Part shown: one piece after another, positions 2,667 through 60,816 of the stretch
How the letters are laid out: each line of letters opens with the position of its first letter
Numbering within the stretch: the first letter of the stretch is position 1
Source: Clostridia bacterium
GTDB lineage: Bacteria; Bacillota; Clostridia; Acetivibrionales; JAFADI01
Length of the DNA: 64,000 nt
Reading direction: 5' to 3'
Assembly: GCA_026418695.1 (NCBI GenBank)
Contig: JAOAAU010000092.1
Span: forward strand, 1-64,000
Program-made: the position numbers and the translations under genes
The notes under the pieces: generated by a model
Database searches by the model: none
What the model saw: the letters and a program-made list of their open reading frames with translations, nothing else
What the model was told of the DNA's origin: nothing

Positions 2667-2857
2667 AAATCACCTCAATGATATTATGTTGAGCTGATAA
2701 CAATTTCACGCAAGCAAATATTTATAATTCAGAGGAATATTGAAACTTTTGATAAAAACTAATCATAAAAATTCAAATTAAAAAACGATCCAGCGGAATC
2801 AGCCGGATCGTTCCCAAATCAATGCGATAGCTAGAAAAGAATATCAATAGAATATAA

Positions 2858-3475
2858 TTAAAGATTCTTTGACTCTGAAAGACTGTCATAAAAAGTCTTA
2901 ACAAATGTATCGATGAAGAAGTCCTTTGATTTTTCAGCATCAAACCCGAAGTCTTCATTAAACTTGTCGGACAAACTGGAATACATCACCATCGGTAAAG
3001 TGTTAAAGAAAAATACCTTCGTAAGAAACTGCTGCTGGTCTACAGAGATATTGTCCGTCTCATCGGAAAAAGCGAGGATGGTACTGAAGAGTTCTTTTAA
3101 TATGGATAGTGAACCGATATTCCCGTTTTTACCCTTAATGAATTCAAGGGTGATGAGCCGGAGCACTTCTTTCCTTTCAAGGAAAAATCCGATCATTATC
3201 TCAATATGCGCCCGAAAACTCTCAGGATGATGAATATCGACATTCGTCATGTTTGCCTGGAACTTGTTTTTCACTTCATTCAACACTCTCAGCAGAAGCT
3301 CTGAAAGAATATTTTCCTTGCTGTTGAAGTGATAGTACAGCATTACCTTGGTCAAACCCGCCTGCTTAGCGATGTCTTCCACCTTGGCCTTGTCAAAGCC
3401 TTTTTCGATGAATTCGCCTAAAGCGGCATTCAGAATTTTTTCCTTTGTCAAGTCACCCATTTTGTTTCCAGCCAT
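2858..3475 (-). CDS. TetR/AcrR family transcriptional regulator
   Basis: A 205-residue protein with an N-terminal TetR helix-turn-helix (ILNAALGEFIEKGFDKAKVE, then GLTKVMLYYHFNSKENIL) and a variable helical C-terminal ligand domain. It is transcribed divergently from the glycosyltransferase at 3759. Two copies of the palindrome AGTTTAAACT lie in the shared intergenic region, one near its own start and one just past the glycosyltransferase promoter. This suggests it represses both itself and the 3759-6464 genes. The ligand is unknown. An AGGTGA site precedes the chosen ATG; the Met six codons later is an alternative start. Confidence 0.9.
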   Translation of the reverse strand: MAGNKMGDLTKEKILNAALGEFIEKGFDKAKVEDIAKQAGLTKVMLYYHFNSKENILSELLLRVLNEVKNKFQANMTNVDIHHPESFRAHIEIMIGFFLERKEVLRLITLEFIKGKNGNIGSLSILKELFSTILAFSDETDNISVDQQQFLTKVFFFNTLPMVMYSSLSDKFNEDFGFDAEKSKDFFIDTFVKTFYDSLSESKNL

Positions 3476-3508
3476 AAAATCACCTACAAATTATTTTTGC
3501 TTACTTCA

Positions 3509-3518
3509 AGTTTAAACT
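3509..3518. promoter_or_regulatory. palindromic operator candidate near tetR start
   Basis: AGTTTAAACT is a perfect 10-base palindrome sitting 34 bases before the tetR ATG. The same decamer recurs at 3638-3647. Placement in a divergent TetR promoter region suggests an autorepression site; this is inference. Confidence 0.5.
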
Positions 3519-3600
3519 ATTGGTTAGAACTTGTTACCATCTTAATACAAAACCTTGGAAAATTCAAGATTCTAATTGTTTTAGAATGATCTTGTGGGTA

Positions 3601-3629
3601 TTGACAAAAACTTCTAAAAGTTATATATT
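3601..3629 (+). promoter_or_regulatory. sigma-A type promoter of the glycosyltransferase operon
   Basis: TTGACA (3601-3606), a 17-base spacer and TATATT (3624-3629) form a near-consensus housekeeping promoter pointing at the gene starting at 3759. Confidence 0.75.
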
Positions 3630-3637
3630 AAACTTAA

Positions 3638-3647
3638 AGTTTAAACT
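3638..3647. promoter_or_regulatory. second palindromic operator candidate, overlapping the transcription start
   Basis: A second AGTTTAAACT, 9 bases past the -10 box of the 3601 promoter, so about where transcription would begin. A repressor bound here would block the operon, which fits the divergent TetR gene. Confidence 0.55.
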
Positions 3648-3758
3648 AATAGTATAATAAATGATCAATTCAATCGGCTTGTTATGTGATGCAACTATAA
3701 AATTAGAATTCTAAAGACTAATTTACCAGTGACCCAGTGTAAGCGTGAGGTGGTCTTA

Positions 3759-4976
3759 ATGTCAAAAGCTATTTATTTCGGTATGCCCTTCCACGGGCAT
3801 GTCAATCCCAGCTTGGCTTTGGTACAGGAACTTGTGAAGCAGGGAGAAGAAATAATCTATTACTGTAAGGAAGAATTTAAAGAAAAGATAACCAATACAG
3901 GGGCAGAGTATCGAGATTATGGGAAACGATTCTTTTTGAATTCTTCCTATGCAACGGATAATTTCCTGAAATTCAGCAGCCTTCTGATGGAAACAACGAG
4001 AATACTGCTGGAGGATTTGCTTGAAGAGGTTCGAAAGGAAAAGCCCCAATACATCCTTCATGATGCCCAGTGTCCTTGGGGAAAATATATGGCAGCTATC
4101 TTGGGTGTCCCAGGAGTCTCAATCATTACGACTTTTGTTTTTTCTATGAACAATGTGTTCAGGATACCAAGTTTTGCTCAAAATGTGTTAAAATTGTTTA
4201 TCAGGGATTTTCCTTCGTTTATAAGGGCTGAAAGTCTTTGCGGCAGGTTGGACAGAAAATACAAGGTGCGCTGCGGATCAACCTTTGATGCATTTACATC
4301 GAAGGAAAAATTGAATATTGTCTTGACATTGCGAGAATTTCAGCCGGAGGCAGACCGCCTTGACGCATCTTATAAATTTGTAGGTCCTTTGCTCAGTCAG
4401 AGAAAAGAAAAAGAAACATTCTTATTGAATACAATGAAGCATAGGCCGATAATTTATGTATCTCTAGGCACTTTATTCAATAAGGATCACTCGTTTTATA
4501 GAAACTGTATGGTTGGACTGAAGGATATGAACTGTCAGGTGGTTATGGCCGTGGGGAAAGGAATTGACCCGGCGGATTTGGAAAGAATACCGGAAAACTT
4601 TATCGTTCAAAACTATGTTCCTCAACTTGAAATTCTTGAAAAGGCGAGCTTGTTTATCACCCATGCAGGGATGAACAGTGCTCATGAAGGTTTGTATTAT
4701 GGTGTGCCGCTGATTGCAGTACCTCAGCAGCCGGAACAAATGGTAGTTGCAGAGCAGATTGAGAAATCCGGCTGTGGAGTATATTTAAGAAAAAAGGACT
4801 TGAGTCCTGAGGGGATCAGAAAAAGTGTTGAAACTGTTTTAAGGGATAGAAGGTATAGGGAGTGCTGCGTAAATATGGCGCTGGCATTAAAACAATCCGG
4901 GGGATATAAAAAGGCTGCAGAATATATACTGGAGAATAAAAAACAAACAACTTCTGAGATAGGGTTTCATATTTGA
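3759..4976 (+). CDS. MGT-family (UGT-like) glycosyltransferase
   Basis: This 405-residue GT-B fold enzyme resembles macrolide glycosyltransferases (GT1), which move a sugar from a UDP-sugar to small hydrophobic acceptors. Seen: N-terminal acceptor domain start (YFGMPFHGHVNPSLALVQEL) with the usual catalytic His in the FHGH segment, and the C-terminal UDP-binding signature THAGMNSAHEGLYYGVPL followed by VPQQPEQ. The start is placed at the ATG at 3759 after a GAGGTGG site; a GTG 30 bases upstream has no site. It is controlled by a strong promoter with a possible TetR operator, which suggests induction by a toxic acceptor. The acceptor is unknown. Confidence 0.88.
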   Translation: MSKAIYFGMPFHGHVNPSLALVQELVKQGEEIIYYCKEEFKEKITNTGAEYRDYGKRFFLNSSYATDNFLKFSSLLMETTRILLEDLLEEVRKEKPQYILHDAQCPWGKYMAAILGVPGVSIITTFVFSMNNVFRIPSFAQNVLKLFIRDFPSFIRAESLCGRLDRKYKVRCGSTFDAFTSKEKLNIVLTLREFQPEADRLDASYKFVGPLLSQRKEKETFLLNTMKHRPIIYVSLGTLFNKDHSFYRNCMVGLKDMNCQVVMAVGKGIDPADLERIPENFIVQNYVPQLEILEKASLFITHAGMNSAHEGLYYGVPLIAVPQQPEQMVVAEQIEKSGCGVYLRKKDLSPEGIRKSVETVLRDRRYRECCVNMALALKQSGGYKKAAEYILENKKQTTSEIGFHI

Positions 4977-17882: not shown

Positions 17883-18044
17883 ATCCCTAAGTCATATACA
17901 TATCATATCATTCGTATCGTTTTTTTTCTTCACTTGACTTATAAACAACAAACTGTCTCTTGATATGCATTTTATTTCAAAAAACTAGCCGTATCTAATA
18001 ATAGTTTTATAACAAATTCAAAAAAAGTACATGGGTATTTTATA

Positions 18045-18073
18045 TTGAACAGGATTCCAACAGGCGTTACAAT
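18045..18073 (+). promoter_or_regulatory. promoter of the hydrogenase operon
   Basis: TTGAAC (18045-18050), 17-base spacer, TACAAT (18068-18073). The Rex-like site at 18078 covers the predicted transcription start. Confidence 0.65.
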
Positions 18074-18077
18074 GGCA

Positions 18078-18095
18078 TTGTCAAATAATTAACAA
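18078..18095. promoter_or_regulatory. Rex-like operator before the hydrogenase operon
   Basis: TTGTCAAATAATTAACAA differs at one base from the Rex consensus TTGTTAANNNNTTAACAA. It lies just downstream of a -10 box, a position that would block transcription. Rex senses NADH/NAD+ and controls fermentative and hydrogen genes in clostridia. Confidence 0.75.
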
Positions 18096-18157
18096 GAAAA
18101 AACGCGCGAATTATTGTATACAATGTACATTCGAATAGTATTTTGGAGGTGCTGTTA

Positions 18158-18640
18158 GTGATTTCAGATAATCAATATATCAATGTAGATACGATCCTGA
18201 ACCGATATGGAAACAAGAAATCTTCGTTGATTGCAGTGTTGCAGGAGATTCAAAATGAATACAAGTATCTTCCGGAAGATGTTTTAGAATATGTATCCAG
18301 GAAAATGGATATCACCCCGTCAAAAATTTTCAGTGTAGCAACATTTTATGAGAATTTTTCATTGGATCCGAAAGGCAAGTATATCATCAAGATCTGCGAC
18401 GGTACTGCCTGCCACGTTCGTAAATCAATCCCCATATTAAACGCCTTAAGAAAAGAGCTGGCTTTAAGCGAGAAGAAACATACGACAGACGATATGCTGT
18501 TCACCCTCGAAACGGTATCCTGCCTCGGGGCATGCGGACTGGCGCCGGTAATTACAATCAATGACAAGGTATATGCCAAGATGACTCCTGAATCAGCGAT
18601 TCAAGTGCTTCAAAACATCAGAGAGGAGGAATCCAAATGA
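18158..18640 (+). CDS. hydC: bifurcating hydrogenase, NuoE-like [2Fe-2S] subunit (HydC/HndA)
   Basis: The 160-residue subunit has a helical N-terminal part (ILNRYGNKKSSLIAVLQEIQ) and a thioredoxin-like [2Fe-2S] domain with ligands in KICDGTACHVR and ETVSCLGACGLAP. It carries electrons between the flavin subunit and the hydrogenase subunit of trimeric [FeFe] hydrogenases, which use NADH and reduced ferredoxin together to make H2 or run in reverse. The start is GTG at 18158, six bases after GGAGGTG; the TTG at 18143 lies at the binding site. The stop overlaps the ATG of the next gene by four bases (ATGA). Confidence 0.9.
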   Translation: MISDNQYINVDTILNRYGNKKSSLIAVLQEIQNEYKYLPEDVLEYVSRKMDITPSKIFSVATFYENFSLDPKGKYIIKICDGTACHVRKSIPILNALRKELALSEKKHTTDDMLFTLETVSCLGACGLAPVITINDKVYAKMTPESAIQVLQNIREEESK

Positions 18641-20508
18641 TCATCAAGGAAAGAAACCAATTCGAAGAATTCTCCGCTGCTGCTGAAAAAGCGCTGGAAA
18701 ACCAGAGAATACGAGTGCTGGTGTGTGCCGGTACGGGATGTGTGGCAGGCGGTTCTATTGAGATATACAACATAATCAAGCAAATGATCGAAGACAACGG
18801 ACTTCTTGTAGATCTCGAAATGACGGAGGAAAAAGAAGGGATCGGTGTTAAGAAAAGCGGCTGTCACGGCTTCTGTGAAATGGGACCGCTGGTCAGAATC
18901 GAACCGTTTAATTACCTGTATGTAAAGGTTGCACCTCAGGATTGCGAAGAGATCGTTGAAAAAACCTTGATCAAGGGCGGTCCGGTAGAAAGGCTGATGT
19001 ACAGCTTTGAAGGTCAGGTATACAAAACTCAGGAAGCGATTCCTTTTTATAAAAAGCAAACAAGAATGGTTCTGGAACACTGCGGAAGCATCGATGCAGA
19101 GTCCTTCCGGGAATATGTCGCAAAGGGCGGCTATAAAGCTTTTACCAAGGTGCTCTATGAAATGACACCGGATCAGGTTTGTAAAACGATTACCGATTCG
19201 AACCTGAGAGGACGAGGGGGCGGGGGATACCCGGCAGGCAGGAAATGGTCCCAGGTATTGGCTCAAAACAGTGATGTGAAGTATGTCGTATGCAATGGAG
19301 ATGAAGGAGATCCTGGAGCTTTTATGGACCGAAGCGTAATGGAGGGAGACCCCCATGGCGTGATCGAAGGAATGCTGATTGCCGGCTACGCAACCAAGAG
19401 TACCGAAGGATATATTTATGTGAGGGCTGAGTATCCGCTGGCCGTTGAGCGGTTGAGGATTGCTATTGAGCAGGCCCGGGAACATGGCTTCCTGGGAGAG
19501 AATATTCTTAACACCGGATTTTCCTTTGATATTCAGATCAACAAAGGAGCCGGAGCCTTTGTTTGTGGAGAAGGCAGCGCTCTAACTGCTTCTATTGAAG
19601 GTGAACGCGGAATGCCCAGGGTGAAGCCGCCAAGAACCGTTGAAAAAGGCTTATGGGAAAAACCGACGGTATTGAATAATGTTGAAACCTTCGCGAATGT
19701 GCCGCTGATTATCAATCACGGAAGCGAATGGTATAAATCCATTGGTCCCGAAAAGAGTCCGGGAACGAAAGCCTTTGCACTGACCGGAAATGTAAACAAT
19801 ACCGGTCTGATTGAAGTACCTATGGGAACTACACTAAGAGAGATCATTTTTGATATCGGCGGGGGAATTCAAAAAGGGAAAAAGTTTAAATCCGTACAGA
19901 TCGGCGGACCATCCGGGGGATGTTTGACCGACGAACATCTGGACCTGCCGCTGGATTTTGACTCCTTGAAAAAAGTAGGTGCCATGATCGGCTCCGGCGG
20001 ATTGGTTGTCATGGACGAAGATACCTGCATGGTGGAAGTCGCAAGGTATTTCATGAACTTCACCCAGAACGAGTCCTGCGGAAAATGCGTTCCTTGCAGG
20101 GAAGGAACCAAGAGAATGCTGGAAATCCTCGAAAGAATTGTTGCCGGAAAAGGCAGTGTTGCAGACCTGGAGATATTGGAGGAACTCGCGGAGACCATCA
20201 GCAGTACGGCGCTTTGTGGACTCGGTAAGTCTGCAGCAAGCCCGGTCGTCAGTACGTTGAAATATTTTAAGGACGAATATCTGGCCCATGTGGTCGATAA
20301 GAAATGTCCGACACGCACTTGTAAAGCACTGAATTCATTTGTGATCAAGAAAGAGAATTGCAAAGGCTGCAGCAAATGTGCCAGGGTATGTCCGATTGGG
20401 GCCATTGAAGGAAAAATCAAGGAGCCCTATTCAATCAAACAGTCTAAATGTATAAAATGCGGTGCATGTGTAGAAGCTTGTCCGTTTTCTGCGATAGAGG
20501 AGGTATAG
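18637..20508 (+). CDS. hydB: bifurcating hydrogenase, NuoF-like flavin subunit (HydB/HndC)
   Basis: The 623-residue subunit shows, in order, a thioredoxin-like [2Fe-2S] domain (VLVCAGTGCVAGG, SGCHGFCEMGP), the NADH- and FMN-binding core (GRGGGGYPAGRKW at about 190; VCNGDEGDPGAFMDR), the SLBB region, a [4Fe-4S] site (NESCGKCVPCREGTKR) and two C-terminal [4Fe-4S] motifs (CKGCSKCARVCPIGAI, CIKCGACVEACPFSAI). It is the site of NAD(P)H exchange and probably of bifurcation. Length fits the family (about 600-625). It is translationally coupled to hydC and followed one base later by the hydA start. Confidence 0.94.
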   Translation: MIIKERNQFEEFSAAAEKALENQRIRVLVCAGTGCVAGGSIEIYNIIKQMIEDNGLLVDLEMTEEKEGIGVKKSGCHGFCEMGPLVRIEPFNYLYVKVAPQDCEEIVEKTLIKGGPVERLMYSFEGQVYKTQEAIPFYKKQTRMVLEHCGSIDAESFREYVAKGGYKAFTKVLYEMTPDQVCKTITDSNLRGRGGGGYPAGRKWSQVLAQNSDVKYVVCNGDEGDPGAFMDRSVMEGDPHGVIEGMLIAGYATKSTEGYIYVRAEYPLAVERLRIAIEQAREHGFLGENILNTGFSFDIQINKGAGAFVCGEGSALTASIEGERGMPRVKPPRTVEKGLWEKPTVLNNVETFANVPLIINHGSEWYKSIGPEKSPGTKAFALTGNVNNTGLIEVPMGTTLREIIFDIGGGIQKGKKFKSVQIGGPSGGCLTDEHLDLPLDFDSLKKVGAMIGSGGLVVMDEDTCMVEVARYFMNFTQNESCGKCVPCREGTKRMLEILERIVAGKGSVADLEILEELAETISSTALCGLGKSAASPVVSTLKYFKDEYLAHVVDKKCPTRTCKALNSFVIKKENCKGCSKCARVCPIGAIEGKIKEPYSIKQSKCIKCGACVEACPFSAIEEV

Positions 20509-20509
20509 G

Positions 20510-22204
20510 ATGATGAAGGGAAGCATGCTGATTGATGGACAAAGAGTGGAATTTAATGATGAAAAGCACATCCTGGAAGTGATAAGAAAGGCAGGAATTG
20601 ATCTGCCGACCTTCTGTTATCATTCGGAACTGAGTGTTTATGGTGCATGCAGAATGTGTATGGTGGAAGATAAATGGGGCGGCACGGTAGCTTCCTGCTC
20701 AACACCTCCCAAGGATGGGATGGAGATTTACACCAATACGGCTAAGCTTAAGAAGCATAGAAAAATGATCCTTGAACTGATTCTTTCCAATCATGACAGG
20801 GATTGCACCGTTTGTGAGAAAAACGGAAGGTGCAAGCTGCAGGAACTGGCAATCCGCTTTGGGGTCAAGCAGGTAAGGTTTGAAGAAGAGAAAAAGGACC
20901 TCATGGTAGACGACAGCAGCACCTCTATTGTAAGAAATCCGAACAAATGCATCCTTTGCGGCGACTGTGTAAGAATGTGTGAAGAAGTTCAGGGTGTCGG
21001 AGTTTTGGGATTTGCTTACAGGGGATCGAAAATACAGGTAACCACTGCTTTCAATAAGCAGATGGATCACGTAAACTGCGTCAATTGCGGACAATGCCGT
21101 ACTGTTTGCCCGACGGGAGCACTGGTGATCAAAAAAGATATGGAAAGGGCTTGGGATGCTCTTTATGACAAAAATAAGCGTGTAATTGCGCAGGTTGCGC
21201 CAGCCGTACGAGTTGCCCTTGGAGAAGAATTCGGATTGGAACCCGGAGAAATCACGATGGGAAAGATTGTTGCAGCTTTGCGGAAAATGGGCTTTGATCA
21301 AGTTTATGATACAGGTCTGGCAGCAGACTTGACGGTAATGGAGGAAAGTGAAGAGTTCAAAAAGCATCTTGAACTGAATGGAACCCTTCCGCTGTTTACT
21401 TCCTGCTGTCCTGCCTGGTTCAAATATGCGGAACAGAAATACCCTGAACTTTTGGAGCATATTTCTTCCTGCCGTTCTCCACAGCAGATGTTTGGAGCGG
21501 TGATCAAAGAGCAGTTTAGAAAAGTGAAGGAAAGTGATTCAAAGGAAAATGTCGTGATCGCCATCATGCCCTGCACCGCTAAAAAATATGAGGCTGCAAG
21601 GCCGGAATACAGGAATAACGGTGAATATGATGTGGATATGGTCATTACAACCCAGGAACTTGCGATGATGATCAAAGAACAGGGCATTATCTTTAACGAA
21701 CTGGAGGAAGAATCGCTGGATATGCCTTTCGGACTTGCCAGTGGGGCAGGAATCATCTTCGGCGTCAGCGGTGGGGTTGCAGAAGCGGTATTAAGGCACT
21801 GCGTTTCCGAAAAAACCCCGGGAAGTTTGAAAGACCTGGCTTTTGTAGGAGTAAGAGGGCTTGATGGCGTAAAAGAAGCCTATGTTGAACTGGAGGGAAA
21901 AGAAATCAAAATCGCAGTCGTGCATGGCTTGAAAAATGCGGAGAAACTGATCAAGTCCATACAAAGCGGTGAAAAGAACTATGATTTCGTTGAAGTCATG
22001 GCCTGCCCGGGCGGATGTATCGGCGGCGCCGGGCAGCCTATTCCGCAGTCGGTTCAGGTACGTTCACAGCGGGCTAAAGGAATTTATAGTGCGGACAATT
22101 CCTCTCCTATCAAAAGATCCGAAGAAAATCCGACCATTATTGCCCTTTACAACGGAATGCTGAGGGGAAACCATAAACTGCTCCATCGACCTAAAACGCT
22201 ATAA
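20510..22204 (+). CDS. hydA: [FeFe] hydrogenase catalytic subunit of the trimeric enzyme
   Basis: The 564-residue protein has an N-terminal [2Fe-2S] domain (Cys 36, 47, 50, 63), a His-Cys3 [4Fe-4S] site (HDRDCTVCEKNGRC), two [4Fe-4S] motifs (CILCGDCVRMC, CVNCGQCRTVCP) and a complete H-cluster: L1 FTSCCPAW with proton-transfer Cys 299 and ligand Cys 300, L2 MPCTAKKYE, and L3 EVMACPGGCIGGAGQP. All catalytic residues are present, so it should be active. It lacks the extra C-terminal ferredoxin domain found in some HydA proteins. GAGGAGG lies six bases before the ATG. The maturation genes hydE, hydF and hydG are not in the window. Confidence 0.95.
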   Translation: MMKGSMLIDGQRVEFNDEKHILEVIRKAGIDLPTFCYHSELSVYGACRMCMVEDKWGGTVASCSTPPKDGMEIYTNTAKLKKHRKMILELILSNHDRDCTVCEKNGRCKLQELAIRFGVKQVRFEEEKKDLMVDDSSTSIVRNPNKCILCGDCVRMCEEVQGVGVLGFAYRGSKIQVTTAFNKQMDHVNCVNCGQCRTVCPTGALVIKKDMERAWDALYDKNKRVIAQVAPAVRVALGEEFGLEPGEITMGKIVAALRKMGFDQVYDTGLAADLTVMEESEEFKKHLELNGTLPLFTSCCPAWFKYAEQKYPELLEHISSCRSPQQMFGAVIKEQFRKVKESDSKENVVIAIMPCTAKKYEAARPEYRNNGEYDVDMVITTQELAMMIKEQGIIFNELEEESLDMPFGLASGAGIIFGVSGGVAEAVLRHCVSEKTPGSLKDLAFVGVRGLDGVKEAYVELEGKEIKIAVVHGLKNAEKLIKSIQSGEKNYDFVEVMACPGGCIGGAGQPIPQSVQVRSQRAKGIYSADNSSPIKRSEENPTIIALYNGMLRGNHKLLHRPKTL

Positions 22205-22981: not shown

Positions 22982-23233
22982 ATGCTTCAAGTTTTCATTT
23001 GTGTGGGAAGTTCCTGCCATCTAAAAGGTTCGTACCAGATTATCCGAACCTTCGAAGAACTTATAAAAAAATACAAGCTGGAAAACAAGGTTGAACTGAA
23101 AGCCTCCTTTTGCCTGGGACAATGCACCAGAGGCGTAGCTGTCAAAGTAGAAAACGAACTGATCGAAGAACTTACAATATCCAATGCCATTGAAAAATTT
23201 GATGAATATATCTATAAGAAGGTTATGGTATGA
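22982..23233 (+). CDS. second small thioredoxin-like [2Fe-2S] ferredoxin
   Basis: The 83-residue protein is a paralogue of the one at 22326: ICVGSSCHLKGSYQII against VCVGSACHLKGSYNII, and CLGQC against CLGKC. It binds a [2Fe-2S] cluster by family. It is the first gene behind its own promoter and its stop overlaps the ATG of the sensory hydrogenase (four bases), so it is likely the electron partner of that protein. GGGGGG lies upstream of the ATG. Confidence 0.85.
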   Translation: MLQVFICVGSSCHLKGSYQIIRTFEELIKKYKLENKVELKASFCLGQCTRGVAVKVENELIEELTISNAIEKFDEYIYKKVMV

Positions 23234-24948
23234 GTATAATTCAGTTTAAAGAAGCCAATTGCAAAAACTGCTACAAGTGTCTCCGAAGCTGTCCGGTGAA
23301 AGCCATCGCCTTTTTCAAGGATCAGGCCAGTATCCTGGAGGAGGATTGCATGTTGTGCGGAAATTGCCTGACAGTATGCCCTCAGAACGCCAAGAGCGTA
23401 AAAAGCGATATCGATACAGTGAAGGAATTTATCAAGAAAAAAGAAAAGGTATATGTCAGCCTGGCACCATCTTATGTAGCTGCATTCGAGACTTCCGACG
23501 AAAGACAAATTATTGCATCCATCAAGAAGCTGGGTTTCACCTATATTGAAGAAACAGCGGTAGGTGCGGTACAAGTATCAAAAGAGTATGAAAAGCTGCT
23601 TCTTGAAAAGAAGATGAAGAATATTATCACTACAGCCTGTCCCTCCATTTCACTGCTGATTCAAAAGTATTACCCGGAGCTGGTTGAACAGATGGCGCCT
23701 GTTGTATCTCCAATGATTGCTCATGCAAAAATGCTGAGAGAGACCTACGGCAACAGAATCAGGGTGGTATTTATCGGACCTTGTCTTTCAAAGAAGGATG
23801 AATGCAGAGATCTTCAAAACAGTGGAGCGGTGGATGCGGTTATAACCTTCGAAGAACTTGAACAATGGCTGGAGACTGAGGGAATCGATCTTGAAATGGA
23901 TTCCGGCGATGAGATTAAAGGCATTAAGGATTTAACCGCGAGGCTTTATCCGATTCCCGGCGGAATCATTAAAACCATCGACAGCAAAAGCCGAAAGAAT
24001 TATAAATGCATCAGTGTAGACGGCGTAGACCGGTGTATGCGAATCCTGGACTCTATAAAAAATGACGGAGTTGAAAACTATTTTATTGAAATGAACAGCT
24101 GCTCGGGCGGGTGCATCGGCGGGCCGTGTATGAAACCATTAAAGGGCGGATTCCTTGAAGCCAGAGACCGGTTAATCGGTTATATCAAAAGAGGTATGAA
24201 GGAAGAACGGGGGCTGTTGGATCAGAACGTCAAAGTCGATTTGAGCAAAAAGTTCTTCGACATGTCCAAAGAACTCAGAGTCCCTTCGGAATCTGTCATT
24301 GCAGCTATTCTGAACAGGATCGGAAAGTTCAATAAAGACCAGGAATTGAATTGTGGCGCCTGTGGGTACTCAAGCTGCAGGGAAAAAGCAATCGCCGTAT
24401 TCAATAATAAAGCACAGCTCCACATGTGCCTTCCCTACATGCGGGAGAGAGCAGAATCCATTTCCAACCTGATCATCAATACGACACCGAATGCGATCAT
24501 TGCGCTGGATACCAATTTATGCATTCAAGAAATCAATCTATCCGCGCAAAAGATATTCAAACTGGATAAGAACATGGAAGGTACCAGCATCTATGAGATC
24601 CTTGAATGTGAAGATTTTCAGAACGTTTTAGACAGCAAAACAAGTATTTACGATCAGAAATTCTACTATGAAAAATATGATATCACCGTAGAACAGACAA
24701 TCATTTACGTACCCGAACAAAATATCGTTGTTGTAATCCTGAAGGACATCACAAAGGAAGAAAAAACAAGACAGCAGATGTACCAGGTAAGGGCGGAAAC
24801 CGTAGACATTGCTCAGAAGGTCATTGAAAAGCAGATGAGAGTCGCACAGGAAATCGCGAGTCTCCTTGGGGAAACTACCGCAGAAACCAAGGTCGCCCTT
24901 ACAAAACTCAAAAAATCCATTATGGCAGAAGAAGGTGAGGTCAAATGA
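23230..24948 (+). CDS. hydS: sensory-type [FeFe] hydrogenase with PAS domain (HydS-like)
   Basis: The 572-residue protein has two N-terminal [4Fe-4S] motifs (CKNCYKCLRSCP, CMLCGNCLTVCP), an H-cluster domain with L1 TTACPS, L2 IGPCLSKKDE and L3 MNSCSGGCIGG, a further [4Fe-4S] site (CGACGYSSC, then Cys 400), a PAS domain at about 410-510 and a C-terminal helix. In L1 the proton-relay Cys is Ala 136, as in the sensory enzyme described from Thermotoga maritima, so it should bind H2 but turn over slowly. The phosphatase gene overlaps its end. It probably senses H2 and signals through that phosphatase. Confidence 0.9.
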   Translation: MSIIQFKEANCKNCYKCLRSCPVKAIAFFKDQASILEEDCMLCGNCLTVCPQNAKSVKSDIDTVKEFIKKKEKVYVSLAPSYVAAFETSDERQIIASIKKLGFTYIEETAVGAVQVSKEYEKLLLEKKMKNIITTACPSISLLIQKYYPELVEQMAPVVSPMIAHAKMLRETYGNRIRVVFIGPCLSKKDECRDLQNSGAVDAVITFEELEQWLETEGIDLEMDSGDEIKGIKDLTARLYPIPGGIIKTIDSKSRKNYKCISVDGVDRCMRILDSIKNDGVENYFIEMNSCSGGCIGGPCMKPLKGGFLEARDRLIGYIKRGMKEERGLLDQNVKVDLSKKFFDMSKELRVPSESVIAAILNRIGKFNKDQELNCGACGYSSCREKAIAVFNNKAQLHMCLPYMRERAESISNLIINTTPNAIIALDTNLCIQEINLSAQKIFKLDKNMEGTSIYEILECEDFQNVLDSKTSIYDQKFYYEKYDITVEQTIIYVPEQNIVVVILKDITKEEKTRQQMYQVRAETVDIAQKVIEKQMRVAQEIASLLGETTAETKVALTKLKKSIMAEEGEVK

Positions 24949-26117
24949 GCCTTTATGTCGATACGGGATTTGAAAGCCTGAACAAGCATCGTGAAGAGCT
25001 TTGCGGTGATAAAGTCGAGATCATCCGGAATGACAACTCTGTTGTGGTGGTTCTTGCAGATGGACTGGGCAGCGGGGTCAAAGCGAATATCCTCGCGACA
25101 CTGACTTCCAAGATCATCGGCACCATCATGGCCAACGGATCAAGCATTGATGAAGCTGTTGAAACCATTGCCAATACTTTGCCGGTTTGTAAAGACAGGG
25201 GAATCGCCTACTCCACTTTCTCCATCCTTCAGATCTTCAATTCCGGGGAAGGGTATCTGGTGGAGTTCGACAACCCCTCCGTTTTCAGATTAAGAAAGGG
25301 AAAACCCTTAAAGATTGAGACAGAGACCAGGGTGATCAGCGGAAAAATCATCAATGAAGCAAGGTTTGCCGTGTCTCCGGAGGACTTGTTCATCATGGTC
25401 AGTGACGGCGTGATCCATGCCGGCGTTGGACACACCTTAAATCTTGGATGGCGATGGGAAAATGTCAGTGAATATATCCAAAGGGTCTATAAAAGTGATA
25501 TCTCTGCAAAAGCCATTACCAAACTTCTGATTTCGGTGTGCGACAGCTTATACGCGCACGAACCCGGAGACGATACAACCGTAGTCACCGTGAATATAAA
25601 AAAACCGGTAAAATTAAGCATTATGGTAGGCCCTCCCGTTGAGGTAGACCAGGACCGGAGTATTGTAGACCGATTTGTTTCGCTTGAAGGGAAAAAGGTA
25701 GTCTGCGGGGGAACAACTTCACAAATTGTTTCCAGGATCCTCAAAAAAGAAATCCGGACCAACTTTGATTACTTTAATCCGGCGGTTCCCCCAACAGCAG
25801 AAATTGACGGCATCAACCTCACAACTGAAGGGGTTTTGACTTTGAGAAAAGCGCTGGATCAGATAAAAGCATGTGCTTCCTCTGAAAGTACAATGCAAGA
25901 CTTCCTGAGCCTTAACAAAAGGGATGGCGCGTCAAGACTGGCAAAAATCCTGCTGGCGGAAAGTACGAATATTCATTTTATTGTGGGGCGTGCAATGAAC
26001 CCGGCACACCAAAATCCTGAGTTTCCATTGAATCTGAGCTTGAAGCTCAATCTGGTTGAAGAAATAGCGGAATACTTAAGAAAAATGGGGAAACAGGTGA
26101 GTATTGAATATCATTAA
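24945..26117 (+). CDS. SpoIIE/PP2C-family protein phosphatase
   Basis: The 390-residue protein has a PP2C-like domain at residues 1-215 with metal-binding Asp motifs VVVVLADGLGSGVKAN, FIMVSDGVIHAG and PGDDTTVVTV. A second domain of about 170 residues follows (PVEVDQDRSIVDRFVSLEGK), not recognised with certainty. It overlaps the sensory hydrogenase gene by four bases (ATGA), so the two are translated together. Such phosphatases remove phosphate from Ser/Thr of anti-sigma antagonists or regulators. Its target here is unknown; an H2-dependent signalling chain is the likely reading. Confidence 0.87.
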   Translation: MSLYVDTGFESLNKHREELCGDKVEIIRNDNSVVVVLADGLGSGVKANILATLTSKIIGTIMANGSSIDEAVETIANTLPVCKDRGIAYSTFSILQIFNSGEGYLVEFDNPSVFRLRKGKPLKIETETRVISGKIINEARFAVSPEDLFIMVSDGVIHAGVGHTLNLGWRWENVSEYIQRVYKSDISAKAITKLLISVCDSLYAHEPGDDTTVVTVNIKKPVKLSIMVGPPVEVDQDRSIVDRFVSLEGKKVVCGGTTSQIVSRILKKEIRTNFDYFNPAVPPTAEIDGINLTTEGVLTLRKALDQIKACASSESTMQDFLSLNKRDGASRLAKILLAESTNIHFIVGRAMNPAHQNPEFPLNLSLKLNLVEEIAEYLRKMGKQVSIEYH

Positions 26118-26155: not shown

Positions 26156-26242
26156 AAATATCGGTATGAAAGCCGTTGAGATAGATCAAATCAGCAAAAA
26201 TTCGAATATCGATTGATAAATAGGATAAAGGAGGATGTTATC

Positions 26243-28894
26243 ATGACGGAGAAAATGAAAAACACTTCAAAGGAAAATAATCAAAACCTTAATAAAGAGG
26301 ATGTAAGACAGTCCATTGACAGCCTTGTCTCAAAAGCACAGATAGCCCTGGCGAAGCTGATGGAACTGGACCAGACAAGAATTGACGAGATCGTGAAGGC
26401 GATGGCCATGGCTGGACTGGAAGATCATATGCGACTTGCAAAAATGGCAGTAGAAGAGACTGGCCGGGGTGTCTATGAAGATAAGATTACAAAGAACATT
26501 TTCGCAACCGAATATATTTATCACAGCATCAAGTATGATAAAACCGTTGGAATTATCAATGAAAATGAAAATGAGGACTACTTTGAAGTGGCAGAACCTG
26601 TTGGGATTATTGCTGCGGTGACTCCGGTTACCAATCCTACTTCAACCACAATGTTCAAAGCACTCATTTCGATAAAAACCAGAAATCCCATTATTTTCGC
26701 CTTCCATCCTTCCGCACAGAATTGCAGTGCAGAGGCTGCAAGAATATTACGTGATGCAGCCGTGAACGCGGGAGCTCCGGAAGACTGTATTCTTTGGGTA
26801 GAGAGACCCTCCATCGAAGCAACGCAGCTGCTGATGAATCACAAGGGAGTAGCTCTGATTCTTGCAACCGGAGGCGCGGGCATGGTAGAAGCTGCATATA
26901 GCACAGGAAAGCCTGCATTGGGAGTCGGACCTGGAAACGTGCCCTGCTATATCGAGAAGACCGCAAATGTAAAAAGAGCTGCTACGGACCTGATGGTATC
27001 CAAAACCTTTGATAACGGTATGATCTGTGCATCCGAACAGGCTGTGATCGTTGATAAGGAAATTTCACAAGAGTTTGAAGCATTTATGAAGGAAAATGCA
27101 TGTTATTTCCTCAATCAGGAGGAAACGGCGAAGCTTGCAAAGCTAGCCATAGACGAAGTAAAGTGCGCATTGAATCCGAATATTGTAGGTCAGTCTGCTT
27201 ATACCATTGCCAAGATGGCGGGATTATCCGTACCGGAAAATACCAAAATTCTTATTGCTCGCCAGGAAGGCGTTGGACCCGAGTATCCCCTGTCCAGGGA
27301 AAAGCTAAGCCCGATTCTGGCATACTATGTGGTTGATTCTGTAGAAGAGGGAATTACTAAGGCTGAACAAATGGTAGAGTTCGGGGGCTTAGGACACTCG
27401 GCGGTCATCCACTCCCAGGATGAAAAAATTATCGAAGAGTTTTCAAGACGACTGAAAGCAGGAAGATTGATCGTAAATTCGCCTTCCACCCATGGCGCTA
27501 TCGGAGACATTTATAATACCAATATGCCTTCTCTTACGCTTGGCTGCGGATCTTTCGGAAAAAATTCCACGACCTCCAATGTTTCTGCCGTGAACCTGAT
27601 CAATAAAAAACGTGTAGCAAGGAGAAGGGTGAACATGCAGTGGTTTAAGATTCCTGAAAAGATATTCTTCGAATTCGGTTCAACACAGTATCTCGAAAAA
27701 ATGCCGGATATAACAAAAGCGTTTATCGTGACCGACCCTTATATGGTGAAACTGGGCTATGTCGATAAGGTTCTTTACTACTTGAGAAAAAGGCAGCAGT
27801 ATGTGCACTGTGAGATCTTCTCCGATGTTGAACCCGATCCTTCTGTAGAAACAGTGATGAGAGGCTGCGAATTGATGAACAGCTTCAAGCCCGATGTGAT
27901 TATCGCCCTCGGCGGCGGCTCAGCAATGGACGCTGCAAAGGGAATGTGGCTGTTCTATGAGCATCCGGAAACCGATTTTAATTCACTCAGATTAAAGTTT
28001 GCAGATATAAGAAAGAGAGTATATAAATTCCCTAAACTCGGGAATAAGGCGAAAATGGTAGCCATTCCGACGACGTCCGGTACAGGCTCTGAAGTGACTT
28101 CCTTCGCTGTTATTACGGATAAACAAAGAAATGTAAAGTACCCGCTGGCGGACTATGAATTGACACCCGATGTTGCGATCATTGACCCTGACTATGTGAT
28201 GTCCGTACCGCCTTCCGTAACTGCAGATACTGGGATGGATGTGCTGACCCACGCTATCGAGGCATATGTATCCATTATGGCTTCCGACTTTACGGACGGT
28301 TTGGCCATCAAAGCAATCCAGCTGGTATTTGAATACTTGCCTAAAGCCTATAAGGACGGGAATGACCGTTTGGCCAGAGAAAAAATGCACAATGCCTCCT
28401 GTATTGCGGGGATGGCCTTCACCAATGCGTTCCTTGGGATCAACCACAGCCTGGCGCATAAGCTGGGTGGAGAATTCCACATTCCCCATGGAAGAGCAAA
28501 TGCAGTACTGCTTCCTCATGTAATTGAATATAATGCTCAAAAACCGACTAAATTTGTAGCATTCCCCAAATACGAAACCTTCATTGCAGACAAGAAATAT
28601 GCAGAGATTGCAAAAGCCCTGGGATTACCAGCGTCTACTACGGATGAAGGGGTTCGAAGCCTGGTAAACGCTGTCCGTGAACTGATGAAGGAACTCAATA
28701 TTCCGATGACCATCGCAGATTGCAAGGTAGATGCCAAAAAGTTTATGGCCAAGGTGCCGGAACTGGCAGATAAAGCATTTGAGGATCAGTGTACTCCGGC
28801 AAATCCGAGAATGCCTTTGGTCAGCGAACTTGAAGCAATCTATGTGAAAGCCTTTCAAGGTTCGGAAACAAAAGCGGCAAATAATAATAGGTAA
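26243..28894 (+). CDS. adhE: bifunctional acetaldehyde-CoA/alcohol dehydrogenase
   Basis: The 883-residue enzyme reduces acetyl-CoA to acetaldehyde and then ethanol with NADH. The N-terminal aldehyde dehydrogenase domain (about 1-440) has [15 protein letters not shown], the [11 protein letters not shown] segment and catalytic Cys in GMICASEQ. The C-terminal iron-dependent alcohol dehydrogenase (about 460-870) has [24 protein letters not shown] and the iron-binding His residues in [19 protein letters not shown]. Length is normal. The ATG at 26243 is preceded by AAGGAGG. A TnpB-like gene begins 12 bases after the stop and is probably on the same transcript. Confidence 0.96.
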
Positions 28895-28906: not shown

Positions 28907-30454
28907 ATGGGTTTACGGACCATTGTTCTAAAACTCCATAAGCCAAGCGCCGGAAAGGAAAAGATCCTTGACAGGGCAATGCTGAACTATAACCTGGCCT
29001 TTGATTACCTGCTGAAAGAGGCTTCGGGAAGTATTGGGGAGATTCTCCCCGACACTCCGGGAAACCGTACGAAATACAATGCCATGACTTTATCCAAATG
29101 GGTCCGCGGAGACTTGAATGAAAGACTGAATCAATACTCGGTGCAGCCTTTCAAGGATTCCTTAAAGCTGGATATTGGAATGACCCTGGCAAGCTATCTC
29201 AAGCTTAAGGAAATTAAGCCTGAGATCGGTTTTCCCGGAGGCAGCGGGCTGCTGGAAATGGAAGCTATACCGGGCAATACGGACTTACACGCTGTCTTGA
29301 ATCGGTTTGAGAAGCTAAGGCCCATATATTTTTGCAGGTATGATCTAAAAAGAAGTTATTGCCTGCTGTATGACCCAGAGAAAAAAAGATATTATGCCAA
29401 ACTGTACCTGATGAATGGCAGCACTGCCAGATCTGTATCCGGGCACCAAAGGGAAAGCGGACCCTTGACTTATGTCCACAAAGACAAGGGCATGCTGGAA
29501 AAGCGAAGAAAAAAGGAAGCGTTCATCCTTGTGCCCCTTTCCTTCGGGAAAAGCCAGGAAAAGGTTCTAACGGAGGCATTGGAGCGGCCTGAAAGCCTGA
29601 GAACAGCAAAGCTCATCCGAAAGAATGGGGAATACTATCTGGCTGTAAGCGTGGATATAGGGGAAGCAGAGAGCATCATCACAGATACTTTTATTGGGGT
29701 TTCAAGGGGACTGAAGCATCCCCTGAATTATTCGGTGGTCAATGGTGCCGGTGAAGTAATGGATTCAGGCGCGATCAACCTAAACAACCATATGGATCCT
29801 CCTTCGAGGATACCGCTGAATGCGCTGCATGAAACTGCCAATGAGATCGTACGAATTGCTTTTGAAAAAAAGGCTCAGGTGATCATGCAGAATCTGGCGG
29901 AGAAGGGCGATCGGATTAGCTGGATGGACCAGGATCAAATCAATCATCAGCCGGTTTTTAAATGCCATGATTATAATCGGCTGGCCGACCTGTTGGAATA
30001 CAAACTGCCTGGAAAGGGGCTGCCGCCACCGGTGAGAGTCAGTTCGGTGGATGTCTTTTATACCTGTCCCAGGTGCGGCTTGAATTCCAGGAAGAACAGA
30101 TTTACCAGGGACATTTTCATTTGCACGCTATGTGGTATGTCCATGGAGGTCGAGAATCTCGGAAGCATGAATATTGCCAGAAAGCTGATCAGCTATAATT
30201 CTTCATCAATCAGGATTAAGGTTGCGAAAACACCCGAGGGAGTTCAATTTACCAATGGTATCCTGGGTCTGGAGCTTTTTAGTCCATATACTGAAAACCA
30301 GTTGGAGAAGCTGAAAAACGAGATTAAACGAATTGTTGAGAATGTTGAAAATACAGTGAATAATTCACGAGGAAAAGAACTGGCAAGAAAAATCAGTATT
30401 GTAAAAAAACTCAGCAGTTCAGAAAACTTTATGGACTTGATTGAATATATTTAA
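28907..30454 (+). CDS. TnpB-family protein with all RuvC catalytic residues replaced (TldR-like candidate)
   Basis: The 515-residue protein has the N-terminal TnpB start (GLRTIVLKLHKPSAGKEKIL), a RuvC fold and a complete zinc ribbon (CPRC at 387-390, CTLC at 406-409). The RuvC Asp (GVDxG in active TnpB) is Ser 266 in GVSRG, the Glu of VMEDL is Gln 328 in VIMQNL, and the Asp of DRDxNAA is Glu 416 in EVENLGS. So it should not cut DNA, yet the frame is intact and has a good ribosome binding site, which argues against simple decay. An extra 85-residue helical tail follows. Nuclease-dead TnpB proteins (TldR) act as RNA-guided repressors. No transposon ends or TnpA were seen. Confidence 0.88.
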   Translation: MGLRTIVLKLHKPSAGKEKILDRAMLNYNLAFDYLLKEASGSIGEILPDTPGNRTKYNAMTLSKWVRGDLNERLNQYSVQPFKDSLKLDIGMTLASYLKLKEIKPEIGFPGGSGLLEMEAIPGNTDLHAVLNRFEKLRPIYFCRYDLKRSYCLLYDPEKKRYYAKLYLMNGSTARSVSGHQRESGPLTYVHKDKGMLEKRRKKEAFILVPLSFGKSQEKVLTEALERPESLRTAKLIRKNGEYYLAVSVDIGEAESIITDTFIGVSRGLKHPLNYSVVNGAGEVMDSGAINLNNHMDPPSRIPLNALHETANEIVRIAFEKKAQVIMQNLAEKGDRISWMDQDQINHQPVFKCHDYNRLADLLEYKLPGKGLPPPVRVSSVDVFYTCPRCGLNSRKNRFTRDIFICTLCGMSMEVENLGSMNIARKLISYNSSSIRIKVAKTPEGVQFTNGILGLELFSPYTENQLEKLKNEIKRIVENVENTVNNSRGKELARKISIVKKLSSSENFMDLIEYI

Positions 30455-30555
30455 ATGGAATCAAAATTTGGTGCTTTTGCTGCCGCACCTTTTGGCTTAC
30501 AGAGTAGGCGCGCTTATACACCGGTATAAGCGTAAAAGCGCAGCTATCCAGAAAG
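30455..30555 (+). ncRNA. candidate structured RNA (possible guide RNA) behind the TnpB-like gene
   Basis: Directly after the stop codon lie two hairpins: GGTGC/GCACC (30470-30489), extended by CAAAA/TTTTG across a three-base bulge, and a perfect 9-bp stem CGCTTATAC-ACCG-GTATAAGCG (30511-30532). TnpB guide RNAs are made from the 3' end of tnpB and the DNA behind it, so this is where one would be. The guide part could not be recognised, and no known scaffold matched by eye. This is inference. Confidence 0.4.
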
Positions 30556-30612
30556 GAAGAGGGGGAGAATTAAGAACTTTAGAATTCTAAAGTTCAGATT
30601 CTCCCCCTCTTC
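30556..30612. terminator. very strong bidirectional hairpin between convergent genes
   Basis: A 15-bp perfect outer stem (GAAGAGGGGGAGAAT with ATTCTCCCCCTCTTC) encloses a 22-base perfect palindrome (GAACTTTAGAA with TTCTAAAGTTC), with a 3 by 2 internal loop between them. It separates the TnpB-like gene (+) from ecsC (-), so it most likely terminates both, although the T-run (TCTATTTG) is weak on the plus side. A cruciform-forming site or part of a mobile element is also possible. Confidence 0.65.
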
Positions 30613-30657
30613 TATTTGTAAAATCAATATGAGTCATCGATGCTTGTGAAAAATGCT

Positions 30658-31380
30658 TTACTTTTGTGGGAGAAGTCTCAATCGATAAGCGTTTTTTGAG
30701 GTTTCTCCAAGCTTATCCATTAACTGATAGTTTGCATAAGCTCCGACAACTGCGCCGATGATCGGGACCAGCTGGAGCATTTTTGCTATATCAATGTAGT
30801 CCCTGTATTCCTGCTGGAAGGTCCTCCAATCGAAGGAACTCATATCATCCGGCAGCCTGGAAGCATAATTGTGCCAGTCCAGCATTTGAAAATAAACCTC
30901 TCGCCGCCGCTGCTGACTTGAAAATGCCAGCTGAAAGATATATAGGATATAAAGTCTTTCTTTATAATTTCCCACATCAAATCCATAGATGGAGGCAGCG
31001 TCAAAAAGAAACTTGAGTTTAAGGCTCAACAGAATCGGAAAATCCGCCATTCCGAGAAAAATACCTCCCGATCCTGTCCAGGCGCCGCTGGCGGCTGCGG
31101 TTTTTTTATAAAAACTTATTTTATCTTTCAAGAGATTTTCACGGTCTCTTAGTGTTGCATAGAGCAGGGGTTCCTTCGTGACCAGTTCGGAACCGAACAG
31201 TACTGCTTTCACCATGTTCTTGATGGCTTCGGTAACGACCTTATGGGCTGTTTCGGGAATGAGTTTGTTTATTTTGACCTGCATCCCTTTAGTAAAAGTA
31301 CTTGCCAGGGAAGGAGCCTTCTCCATCTCTTTTTGCCATATTTTCATCTGCTGCAAGGCTTTCTCTTCGTAGTAATCCAT
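30658..31380 (-). CDS. EcsC family protein
   Basis: The 240-residue protein fits the EcsC family by length and by its layout: a helical start (MDYYEEKALQQMKIWQKEME), a Gly/Ala-rich hydrophobic centre (GSGGIFLGMADFPILLSLKL) and a second hydrophobic hairpin near the end (LVPIIGAVVGAYANYQLM). EcsC-type proteins are membrane-associated and named after the Bacillus ecs operon; their biochemical role is not established. GAGGGA precedes the ATG. It stands alone between a strong hairpin and an inverted-repeat element. Confidence 0.8.
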   Translation of the reverse strand: MDYYEEKALQQMKIWQKEMEKAPSLASTFTKGMQVKINKLIPETAHKVVTEAIKNMVKAVLFGSELVTKEPLLYATLRDRENLLKDKISFYKKTAAASGAWTGSGGIFLGMADFPILLSLKLKFLFDAASIYGFDVGNYKERLYILYIFQLAFSSQQRRREVYFQMLDWHNYASRLPDDMSSFDWRTFQQEYRDYIDIAKMLQLVPIIGAVVGAYANYQLMDKLGETSKNAYRLRLLPQK

Positions 31381-44982: not shown

Positions 44983-45002
44983 GTAAATATAAAATCTCTT
45001 TT

Positions 45003-45084
45003 GATAAAGGCAAACCTGTTGAAAAGCAGGGACGCAAAGCCACGAATCTAAAACAGAAATGTCATGATCGTCGGGCTGCCGGAA
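45003..45084 (+). ncRNA. cyclic di-GMP-I (GEMM) riboswitch before flagellin
   Basis: The aptamer has the conserved core AAAGGCAAACC, a GAAA tetraloop in the P1b hairpin, GGGACGCAAAGCCACG, and the distal GGGCTGCCGG. It is followed by a terminator hairpin at 45106 and the flagellin start at 45232. This is the usual layout of a c-di-GMP-controlled transcription attenuator. High c-di-GMP usually lowers motility, which would favour termination; direction of control cannot be read from sequence. Confidence 0.88.
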
Positions 45085-55650: not shown

Positions 55651-55731
55651 CTTCGGCAACCTGGCAATCTTAGGAGTTCCTCCCTTAGACCCATGGCTTT
55701 GCGACCTTACTTTTCAATAAGTGTGCTATTA
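55651..55731 (-). ncRNA. second cyclic di-GMP-I (GEMM) riboswitch
   Basis: On the minus strand: AGCACACTTATT-GAAA-AGTAAG (P1b with GAAA loop), GTCGCAAAGCCATGGGTCTA, GGGAGGAACTCC, and the distal CAGGTTGCCG. These match the GEMM-I core with ACGCAAAGCC changed to TCGCAAAGCC. A terminator follows at 55590. No obvious gene lies just behind it; the next on this strand is the 77-residue protein at 55216. Confidence 0.75.
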
Positions 55732-55901
55732 TCGACAATAATTTGGTTAACCATTTACATAGTACCATAGCACTATATAAATTGCAAGAAAAAATAGGGC
55801 TATTTACCTAAAAATGTTTTAAAACAGATACTTATCTATAGGATTGATGGTCAGACGCATGCCAAAAACTAACCGGACGCATTGCAATACGGCTTCCCGA
55901 T

Positions 55902-60589: not shown

Positions 60590-60604
60590 TTTTTCGTATG
60601 AAAA

Positions 60605-60805
60605 GTACGGCTGAATCTCCTTGCAAAAGGAGTACGGAGGAACCAATCACAGGGGTTAATCTGATCCGGATGTTGGAAGAATGATTGAGTAGGTTGATTT
60701 GGGATTATTATTCTTTTTCTCGCCTCTCACATCCCGCTTCTCGCATCAAGAAAAGTAGGGTGATCCTGTTACCCGAACCCGTCAGCTAACTTCGGAAGCT
60801 AAAAT
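60605..60805 (+). ncRNA. cyclic di-AMP riboswitch (ydaO/yuaA type) before the wall hydrolase gene
   Basis: The leader has the ydaO core elements GGAGTACGGAGGAACCAAT, GGGGTTAATCTGATC and the 3' part TACCCGAACCCGTCAGCTAA followed by CTTCGGAAGC. This class senses c-di-AMP and is often found before NlpC/P60 and other wall hydrolase genes in clostridia. It ends about 10 bases before the coding start. The mechanism here is not clear because no separate terminator was recognised; the ribosome binding site GGGAGG lies just at its 3' end, which allows control of translation. Confidence 0.85.
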
Positions 60806-60816
60806 GGGAGGGTCTG

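Follow-up and report, generated by a model that had tools for sequence, protein, structure and literature searches.

What is a nuclease-dead TnpB-like protein doing directly behind an alcohol dehydrogenase gene in a hydrogen and ethanol gene cluster? The question is raised by a 64,000-nucleotide (nt) stretch of DNA from a member of the Clostridia (assembly GCA_026418695.1, contig JAOAAU010000092.1, positions 1 to 64,000), hereafter the window. The open reading frame (ORF) at 28907..30454 (+) encodes a protein of 515 amino acids which, from its ORF, family matches and fold matches, is a nuclease-dead Cas12f/TnpB-like protein, and which we call TnpBL. An initial annotation proposed it as a candidate domesticated, RNA-guided regulator of fermentation, and this proposal gains support, as far as sequence can give it, from an RNA encoded 3' of the gene whose guide-position hexamer equals a motif upstream of hydrogenase operons. 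We think it probable that TnpBL and this RNA make up a transcription factor, domesticated and RNA-guided, whose guide is ultra-short and nearly fixed; it is likely an activator and coupled to H2 sensing. The computed observations are a conserved operon, a lost RuvC Asp, a pseudoknotted RNA, a promoter motif equal to the guide hexamer, and a stepped spacing between motif and promoter.

A TnpB-like protein without the first RuvC aspartate

The tnpBL ORF is intact and starts 12 nt past the end of adhE, with the ribosome-binding-like AAGGGGAG preceding its ATG, all as first annotated. The family matches are to Cas12f1-like_TNB in Pfam (4.9e-5) and to Cas12f2 (1.6e-11), guided_TnpB (4e-8) and CasX (1.9e-7) in NCBIfam; all lie below the curated cut-offs and consist of the TnpB/Cas12 zinc ribbon and RuvC remnants. 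An AlphaFold2 model was built from the window and 28 named loci (pLDDT 84.9, pTM 0.59). In Foldseek, complexes of Cas12f with single-guide RNA and DNA match it over nearly its full length, the best being AsCas12f1 (E 9.8e-15, TMq 0.53); TnpB ranks below Cas12f, and the dCas12f-guide RNA structures PDB 9n9c and 9n9m are among the matches. Model, Foldseek matches and four zinc-ribbon cysteines (C387, C390, C406 and C409) place TnpBL in the Cas12f/TnpB fold class. The extra C-terminal helical tail noted earlier appears in the model as helices 465-483 and 490-504.

The catalytic positions, which we take to be 266, 328 and 416, hold S266, Q328 and E416 in the window. At the third RuvC position E416 falls on an Asp in PDB 9nzp, and S266 aligns, in a weak segment, with the Ala of GIALG in AsCas12f1 7wju, presumably itself a replacement of Asp. 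The same positions were read in 37 genomes, that is, the window and 36 relatives (31-51% identical), each genome being counted once. Position 266, the first RuvC Asp, is Ser in 24, Ala in six, Thr in four, Gly in two and Val in one, and Asp in none. At position 328 Glu is kept in 11 genomes (the others have Gln in 16, Tyr in four, Lys in three and His in three), and at 416 Asp is kept in 12 (Glu in 21, Lys in three, Gly in one). The statement that all three positions are changed is thus true of the window; across the family, the first Asp is the only one lost in every genome. The D-E-D triad of active TnpB/Cas12f nucleases occurs in 0/37 orthologues. The zinc ribbon, said to be intact, is so throughout: its four Cys are invariant in 37/37, as is G264, and R267 is present in 36/37.

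Could tnpBL simply be a transposon gene in decay, a passenger behind a hydrogenase operon? Its TnpB ancestry and the lost triad are what such a gene would have. Against decay, the frame is open in 37/37 genomes at the identities given above (neither a broken frame nor an intact triad, both named in the initial annotation among the signs of decay, occurs in the 37), synteny is fixed across the 37 genomes, tnpBL occurs once in its own genome (4.2 Mb, 83% complete), and the Cys4 set, R267 and the RNA described below are conserved. On the open frames, the synteny and the conserved residues and RNA we reject this explanation, whose probability is negligible.

A pseudoknotted RNA encoded directly 3' of tnpBL

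A conserved pseudoknotted RNA lies at 30468..30551 (+), with its scaffold running to 30544 and TATCCAG at the guide position (30545-30551); the covariance model finds it in its own genome with E 1.9e-14. It was present directly 3' of tnpBL in 17/17 first loci and in 36/36 genomes with sequence to read. Among 29 named loci the model places it right behind the gene in 28, and in the other one (L213) the contig stops 67 nt past the gene. Class-wide (391 genomes) the RNA occurs in exactly the 15 TnpBL carriers and at two further loci (G252 and G326), which are without homologues of the window genes and were taken as chance matches.

Stem 1 of the RNA is GGTGC/GCACC with the loop TTTTGCTGCC, stem 2 is CTTAC-AGA-GTAAG, and stem 3 is variable. 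The 3' end reads GTGCAGC-TATCTA, with the border between scaffold and guide at ...GCAGC|TATCTA, and is followed by a terminator-like hairpin. GCTGC of the loop pairs with GCAGC to form the pseudoknot, which covaries as GCTAC/GTAGC and GCTGT/ACAGC. In the three helices 97.9% of cells are paired and 16 are double-change cells, versus a mean of 5.1 in shuffled alignments (0/500 as high); the pseudoknot is 100% paired with two covarying pairs. Rfam gave three gathering matches in the window, none of them at this RNA, and a search of the RNA stretch with E up to 10 returned miRNA and snoRNA models and one DUF805b model (E 3.2), which were taken as chance. The RNA fits no credible Rfam family; it is unclassified and new here.

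The hairpin in the window (30554..30614, +) starts at nt 10 after the scaffold. In 36 genomes the best hairpin starts between nt 6 and nt 33 (median nt 11); in a small number of genomes, L201 and L205 among them, it is weak. Hairpins that begin so close behind the scaffold leave little room for a guide. The hexamer at the guide position is TATCTA in 19 of the 37 genomes, TATCTG in 12, TATTTA in three, TATCTT in one and TATCCA in one (the window), and is missing in one. The Christensenella-type loci L207, L208, L211 and L123 keep both TnpBL and the RNA, with the guide TATCTG.

Other features occur near the RNA. In L232 (G034) and L023 it is followed directly by a gene for a small Cys-containing protein (MKLELDVYS...), and a second conserved noncoding stretch, which we liken to a yybP-ykoY-type riboswitch, lies downstream of the RNA in L026, L028, L029 and L032-L034. 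Beside the RNA in the window, 30658-31380 (-) encodes a 240-amino-acid protein with no NCBIfam match. Riboswitches recognized by Rfam in the window are two c-di-GMP-I and one c-di-AMP, at 44999-45083 (+), 55652-55737 (-) and 60599-60815 (+).

A promoter motif that contains the guide hexamer

Does the end of the RNA have a counterpart in DNA? When its sequence was sought upstream of operons, AAAAACC[G/T]TATCTA was found. An alignment-free count in 450-nt sense-strand upstream segments of the 37 genomes gave ACCGTATCTA as the 10-mer most widely shared upstream of hydrogenase operons (14/37 genomes). The TATCTA within ACCGTATCTA is the hexamer at the RNA guide position; it is also the top hexamer after ACCN in upstream segments, in 19/37 genomes, the next hexamer reaching five. 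With both strands read, ACC[GT]TATCTA had 22 sense and two antisense occurrences; both antisense cases (L201 and L204) lie between divergent genes, where one site is read from either side.

In the window the proposed target is the operon hydC-hydB-hydA at 18143..22204 (+), which encodes NuoE-like and NuoF-like proteins and a group A [FeFe]-hydrogenase. The putative target site GCCGTATCTA lies upstream of hydC at 17988..17997 (+) and matches the window guide TATCCA in 5/6 letters. A hydC match of 60% or more with 150 nt upstream was available for 21/37 carriers, and 16 of these 21 promoters have the site; of the five that do not, four are Christensenella-type, and in the fifth (L203) a site lies farther upstream, in front of a different gene. 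For non-carriers, 95 hydB matches yielded 30 loci, none of which shows the site; 10 of them include at least 150 nt before hydC (six of these close orthologues), and 16 further upstream stretches were added; L162, L172, L180 and L181 were cut by contig ends. None of these 26 non-carrier hydC promoters has the site (Fisher 1.4e-8, ignoring kinship), and a looser near-match, TCCGTATCTATG, occurs in the non-carrier locus L165. Counts of AAACCKTATCTA do not separate carriers from other genomes (211/391 match), so the evidence is positional.

Might the ACCGTATCTA motif belong to another hyd regulator, with TnpBL acting elsewhere in the HydS pathway? The motif does share its promoter region with a second site, TTGTCAAATAATTAACAA, at 18078..18095 (+) upstream of hydC, an operator read from sequence that we call Rex-like on the Rex consensus as we presume it to be; this operator bears out the earlier description of a Rex-like hydrogen/ethanol cluster. 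A motif of some other regulator would not be expected to equal the end of the RNA, nor to be absent from 26/26 non-carrier hydC promoters, six of them from close orthologues, and we hold this explanation to be very improbable.

Position of the sites and likely mode of action

Merging sites that share 20 downstream bases left 30 sense-strand sites, and 28 of them are followed by a sigma-A-like promoter with a score of at least 10, versus 31% of random positions (2352/7636). Twenty-five of the 28 lie 16-18, 35-37 or 46-48 nt before the -35 box, distances at which 15.8% of random positions fall; the other three are at 25, 25 and 33 nt. The putative sigma-A promoter of the hyd operon in the window (18045..18073, +; TTGAAC-17-TACAAT) has a -35 box that starts 47 nt after the site. 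L192 and L196 have two sites each, 29-30 nt apart. By their spacing, these stepped upstream positions are an upstream-activator layout.

The 12-mer was also sought genome-wide in carriers, and 28 of 32 matches were examined (L135, L136 and two locus-less matches were left out). Sixteen of the 28 stand before genes for hydrogen or alcohol or before the small gene next to the RNA; in 15 of the 16 a promoter of score 10.5 or higher follows at 17, 36 or 46-50 nt, L234 being without one. Of the remaining 12, L239 alone scores 10.5, and no gene was found there. Two Fe-alcohol dehydrogenase promoters carry a site, in L220 (50 nt, perfect boxes) and L226 (47 nt); in L232 a guide-like site stands 47 nt before the -35 box of the small gene next to the RNA. 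In the window's own genome ACCKTATCCA has 35 matches versus 11 for the reversed pattern, and ACCKTATCTA 12 versus 14; among 42 stretches examined, three reached a promoter score of 10.5, and no convincing target was seen.

Does the complex activate, or does it repress? One precedent is TldR, reportedly described by Wiegand in 2024 as a group of TnpB-like nuclease-dead repressors. The same RNA-protein complex at the same sites might repress in a TldR-like manner or act by counter-silencing, through blocked polymerase contacts or competition with an activator. Several target promoters do have consensus boxes, and the known nuclease-dead TnpBs are described as repressors in the accessible part of PMC13418256. 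The sites, however, lie 17-50 nt upstream of -35 boxes in steps, and not over the promoter, which makes repression or counter-silencing unlikely in our estimate, if still the strongest of the rival explanations.

Guide and site variants

Do guide and site change together? In Anaerobacterium (L194/L082) both read TATCTT, and in L209 and L210 both read TATTTA. Covariation between guide and site is partial, and base pairing between them is likely, to judge from such sequence pairs.

A number of observations weigh against an RNA-guided activator. The window guide TATCCA stands against a TATCTA site and the L033 guide TATCTA against a TATTTA site; L202 and Caloramator L206, with guides TATCTA, have TATTTA (one-mismatch) candidates only; 7/12 genomes with a TATCTG guide have TATCTA sites (a G-T wobble); and L196, guide TATCTG, also carries a TATCTT site. 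There is no [AG]CCN-TAT[CT]T site before hydC in Christensenella-type L207, L208, L211 and L123, and genome-wide the 12-mer shows no enrichment. An activator should be superfluous at some target promoters, whose -35/-10 boxes are perfect, and a 6-bp guide is shorter than any we know of. The number of RNA pair types, one of five covariation measures, is not above shuffles (186/500). A Pfam scan of the window's HydS-like protein gave no PAS match, and for this reason the name HydS rests on likeness. Finally, the genomes are related, so that counts are not independent, and we settled the site pattern and the distance classes with the data already in view.

That guide and target variants often fail to track each other is what one would expect if TnpBL read the motif by protein-DNA contacts alone, with the RNA as a structural cofactor and the guide identity coincidental or vestigial. 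Protein-only recognition does not account for the guide-position hexamer being the top hexamer after ACCN in promoters, nor for the matching guide and site changes in two lineages, and we regard it as improbable, somewhat more so than repression.

The hydS operon and a proposed mechanism

Which organisms have the system, and with which genes? Full-length relatives of TnpBL were found in 16 others of 60 genomes (own included), with weak zinc-ribbon-like matches only in two more; a TnpBL profile matched 15/391 genomes class-wide, scanning named genomes with an alignment yielded 29 loci, and single-sequence scans of genome contigs and viral contigs gave no matches. Carriers include Ruminiclostridium papyrosolvens, R. 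cellobioparum, R. hungatei, R. sufflavum, Pseudobacteroides cellulosolvens, Anaerobacterium chartisolvens, Petroclostridium, Caloramator quimbayensis, Caproiciproducens faecalis and Christensenella species.

The initial annotation linked tnpBL to adhE (26213..28894, + in the window). This linkage did not hold up: adhE adjoins tnpBL in 7/37 genomes and is rejected as its conserved partner, the phosphatase gene being the immediate neighbour in the other 30. When the neighbouring genes were compared with the proteins of the window, a HydS-like [FeFe]-hydrogenase gene and a SpoIIE-type phosphatase gene lay upstream in 37/37. In the window the hydS-like gene (23230..24948, +) encodes an [FeFe]-hydrogenase domain, an Fe-S domain and a C-terminal stretch that is weakly AtoS-like, and the phosphatase gene (24945..26117, +) a protein of 390 amino acids that matches PF07228 above the cut-off (6.3e-16). 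The usual gene before hydS, at 22982..23233 (+), encodes what we take to be a thioredoxin-like ferredoxin. The phosphatase is present in 108/391 class genomes (E 1e-40) versus 15/391 for TnpBL, which therefore belongs to one branch of hydS-phosphatase operons. In L255 the HydS-phosphatase pair is without TnpBL and is followed by a gene (2670-3761) that we liken to a LytS-type kinase, suggesting other outputs of the same sensor.

We propose that nuclease-dead TnpBL forms a complex with the pseudoknotted RNA that directly follows its gene. Confined by the hairpin, the guide in this RNA would be very short and would hardly vary, being TATCTA or TATCTG in most genomes and TATCCA in the window. The complex would recognize an A-rich CCN stretch, resembling a target-adjacent motif, together with about 6 bp opposite the guide, and this ribonucleoprotein would bind AAACCGTATCTA promoters. 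The predicted target sites precede hydrogenase operons, in some genomes the hydS operon itself, and in two genomes Fe-alcohol dehydrogenase genes. Sitting at helical steps upstream of sigma-A-like promoters, the complex would most likely help RNA polymerase (class-I-like activation). HydS would sense H2 and set the activity of the complex through the SpoIIE-type phosphatase. RNA binding, DNA binding, base pairing, activation over repression, and H2 control are what we infer from the sequences.

A wider claim, that there is an RNA-guided activator family wired to an H2 sensor in which a vertically inherited guide of about 6 nt runs a hydrogen/alcohol regulon, we consider about evenly balanced between true and false. 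If it is true, RNA guidance has been turned into an ordinary transcription factor, and the reach of RNA-guided transcription factors goes beyond repression to include probable activation, by a guide some six letters long. TnpBL is a candidate mediator of the HydS H2 signal to gene expression in its branch of hydS operons, and the system is kept from Ruminiclostridium to Christensenella.

Comparison with known systems

The HydS/HfsB systems of Ruminococcus albus and Thermoanaerobacterium resemble the present one in having a HydS-like protein and a serine phosphatase. According to the accessible part of PMC5707799, deletion of hfsB, a hydS homologue, raises adhE transcripts and alters ethanol yield, through a mediator that is unknown. 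The available portion of PMC11837493 recounts the HydS of R. albus, and that of PMC13104023 treats another HydS without information on its outputs. In the accessible parts of PMC5707799 and PMC11837493 the word 'transposase' occurs 0 times. A literature search gave no paper on a TnpB-like protein with HydS among the matches listed, most subscription papers being outside its coverage.

With the Cas12f1 and TnpB nucleases (AsCas12f1, CnCas12f1, TnpB 8h1j) TnpBL shares the overall fold and the zinc ribbon; unlike them it is without the first RuvC Asp in all genomes. Nuclease-dead Cas12f is known to carry out RNA-guided transcription with sigma factors. The likeness here is in a dead Cas12f-like fold and a site upstream of the start; unlike dCas12f-sigma systems, TnpBL has sites that precede ordinary sigma-A-like boxes, and is linked to hydS and phosphatase genes.

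The initial annotation's comparison with TldR holds for the dead TnpB-like protein, and fails for the sites, which are at activator positions unlike those of a TldR-type repressor. The likeness comprises a RuvC-dead TnpB-like protein beside host genes, a locus RNA with a probable guide role, and putative promoter targets, here TATCTA sites of about 6 nt before hyd and hydS operons, mismatched cases included. Genes associated with TldRs include oppF. Two others, fliC and csrA, are given as TldR neighbours in the accessible part of PMC13418256; those of TnpBL are the hydS-like and phosphatase genes (fliC, oppF and csrA were not searched by name). In that same part of PMC13418256 TldRs are RNA-guided repressors that need a seed of nucleotides 1-6, comparable to the guide of about 6 nt here. 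Unlike in TldR, the TnpBL guide is almost fixed and followed by a hairpin after those few nucleotides, one guide apparently serves several promoters, and the sites lie upstream of -35, fitting activation rather than repression. The system appears to work like TldR in its targeting. We do not file it as TldR, because the associated genes differ and a repressor role is hypothetical for this system. It is best described as an RNA-guided-transcription-factor-like system of the TldR/dCas12f kind that has a hydS operon, a near-fixed ultra-short guide and activator-like sites.
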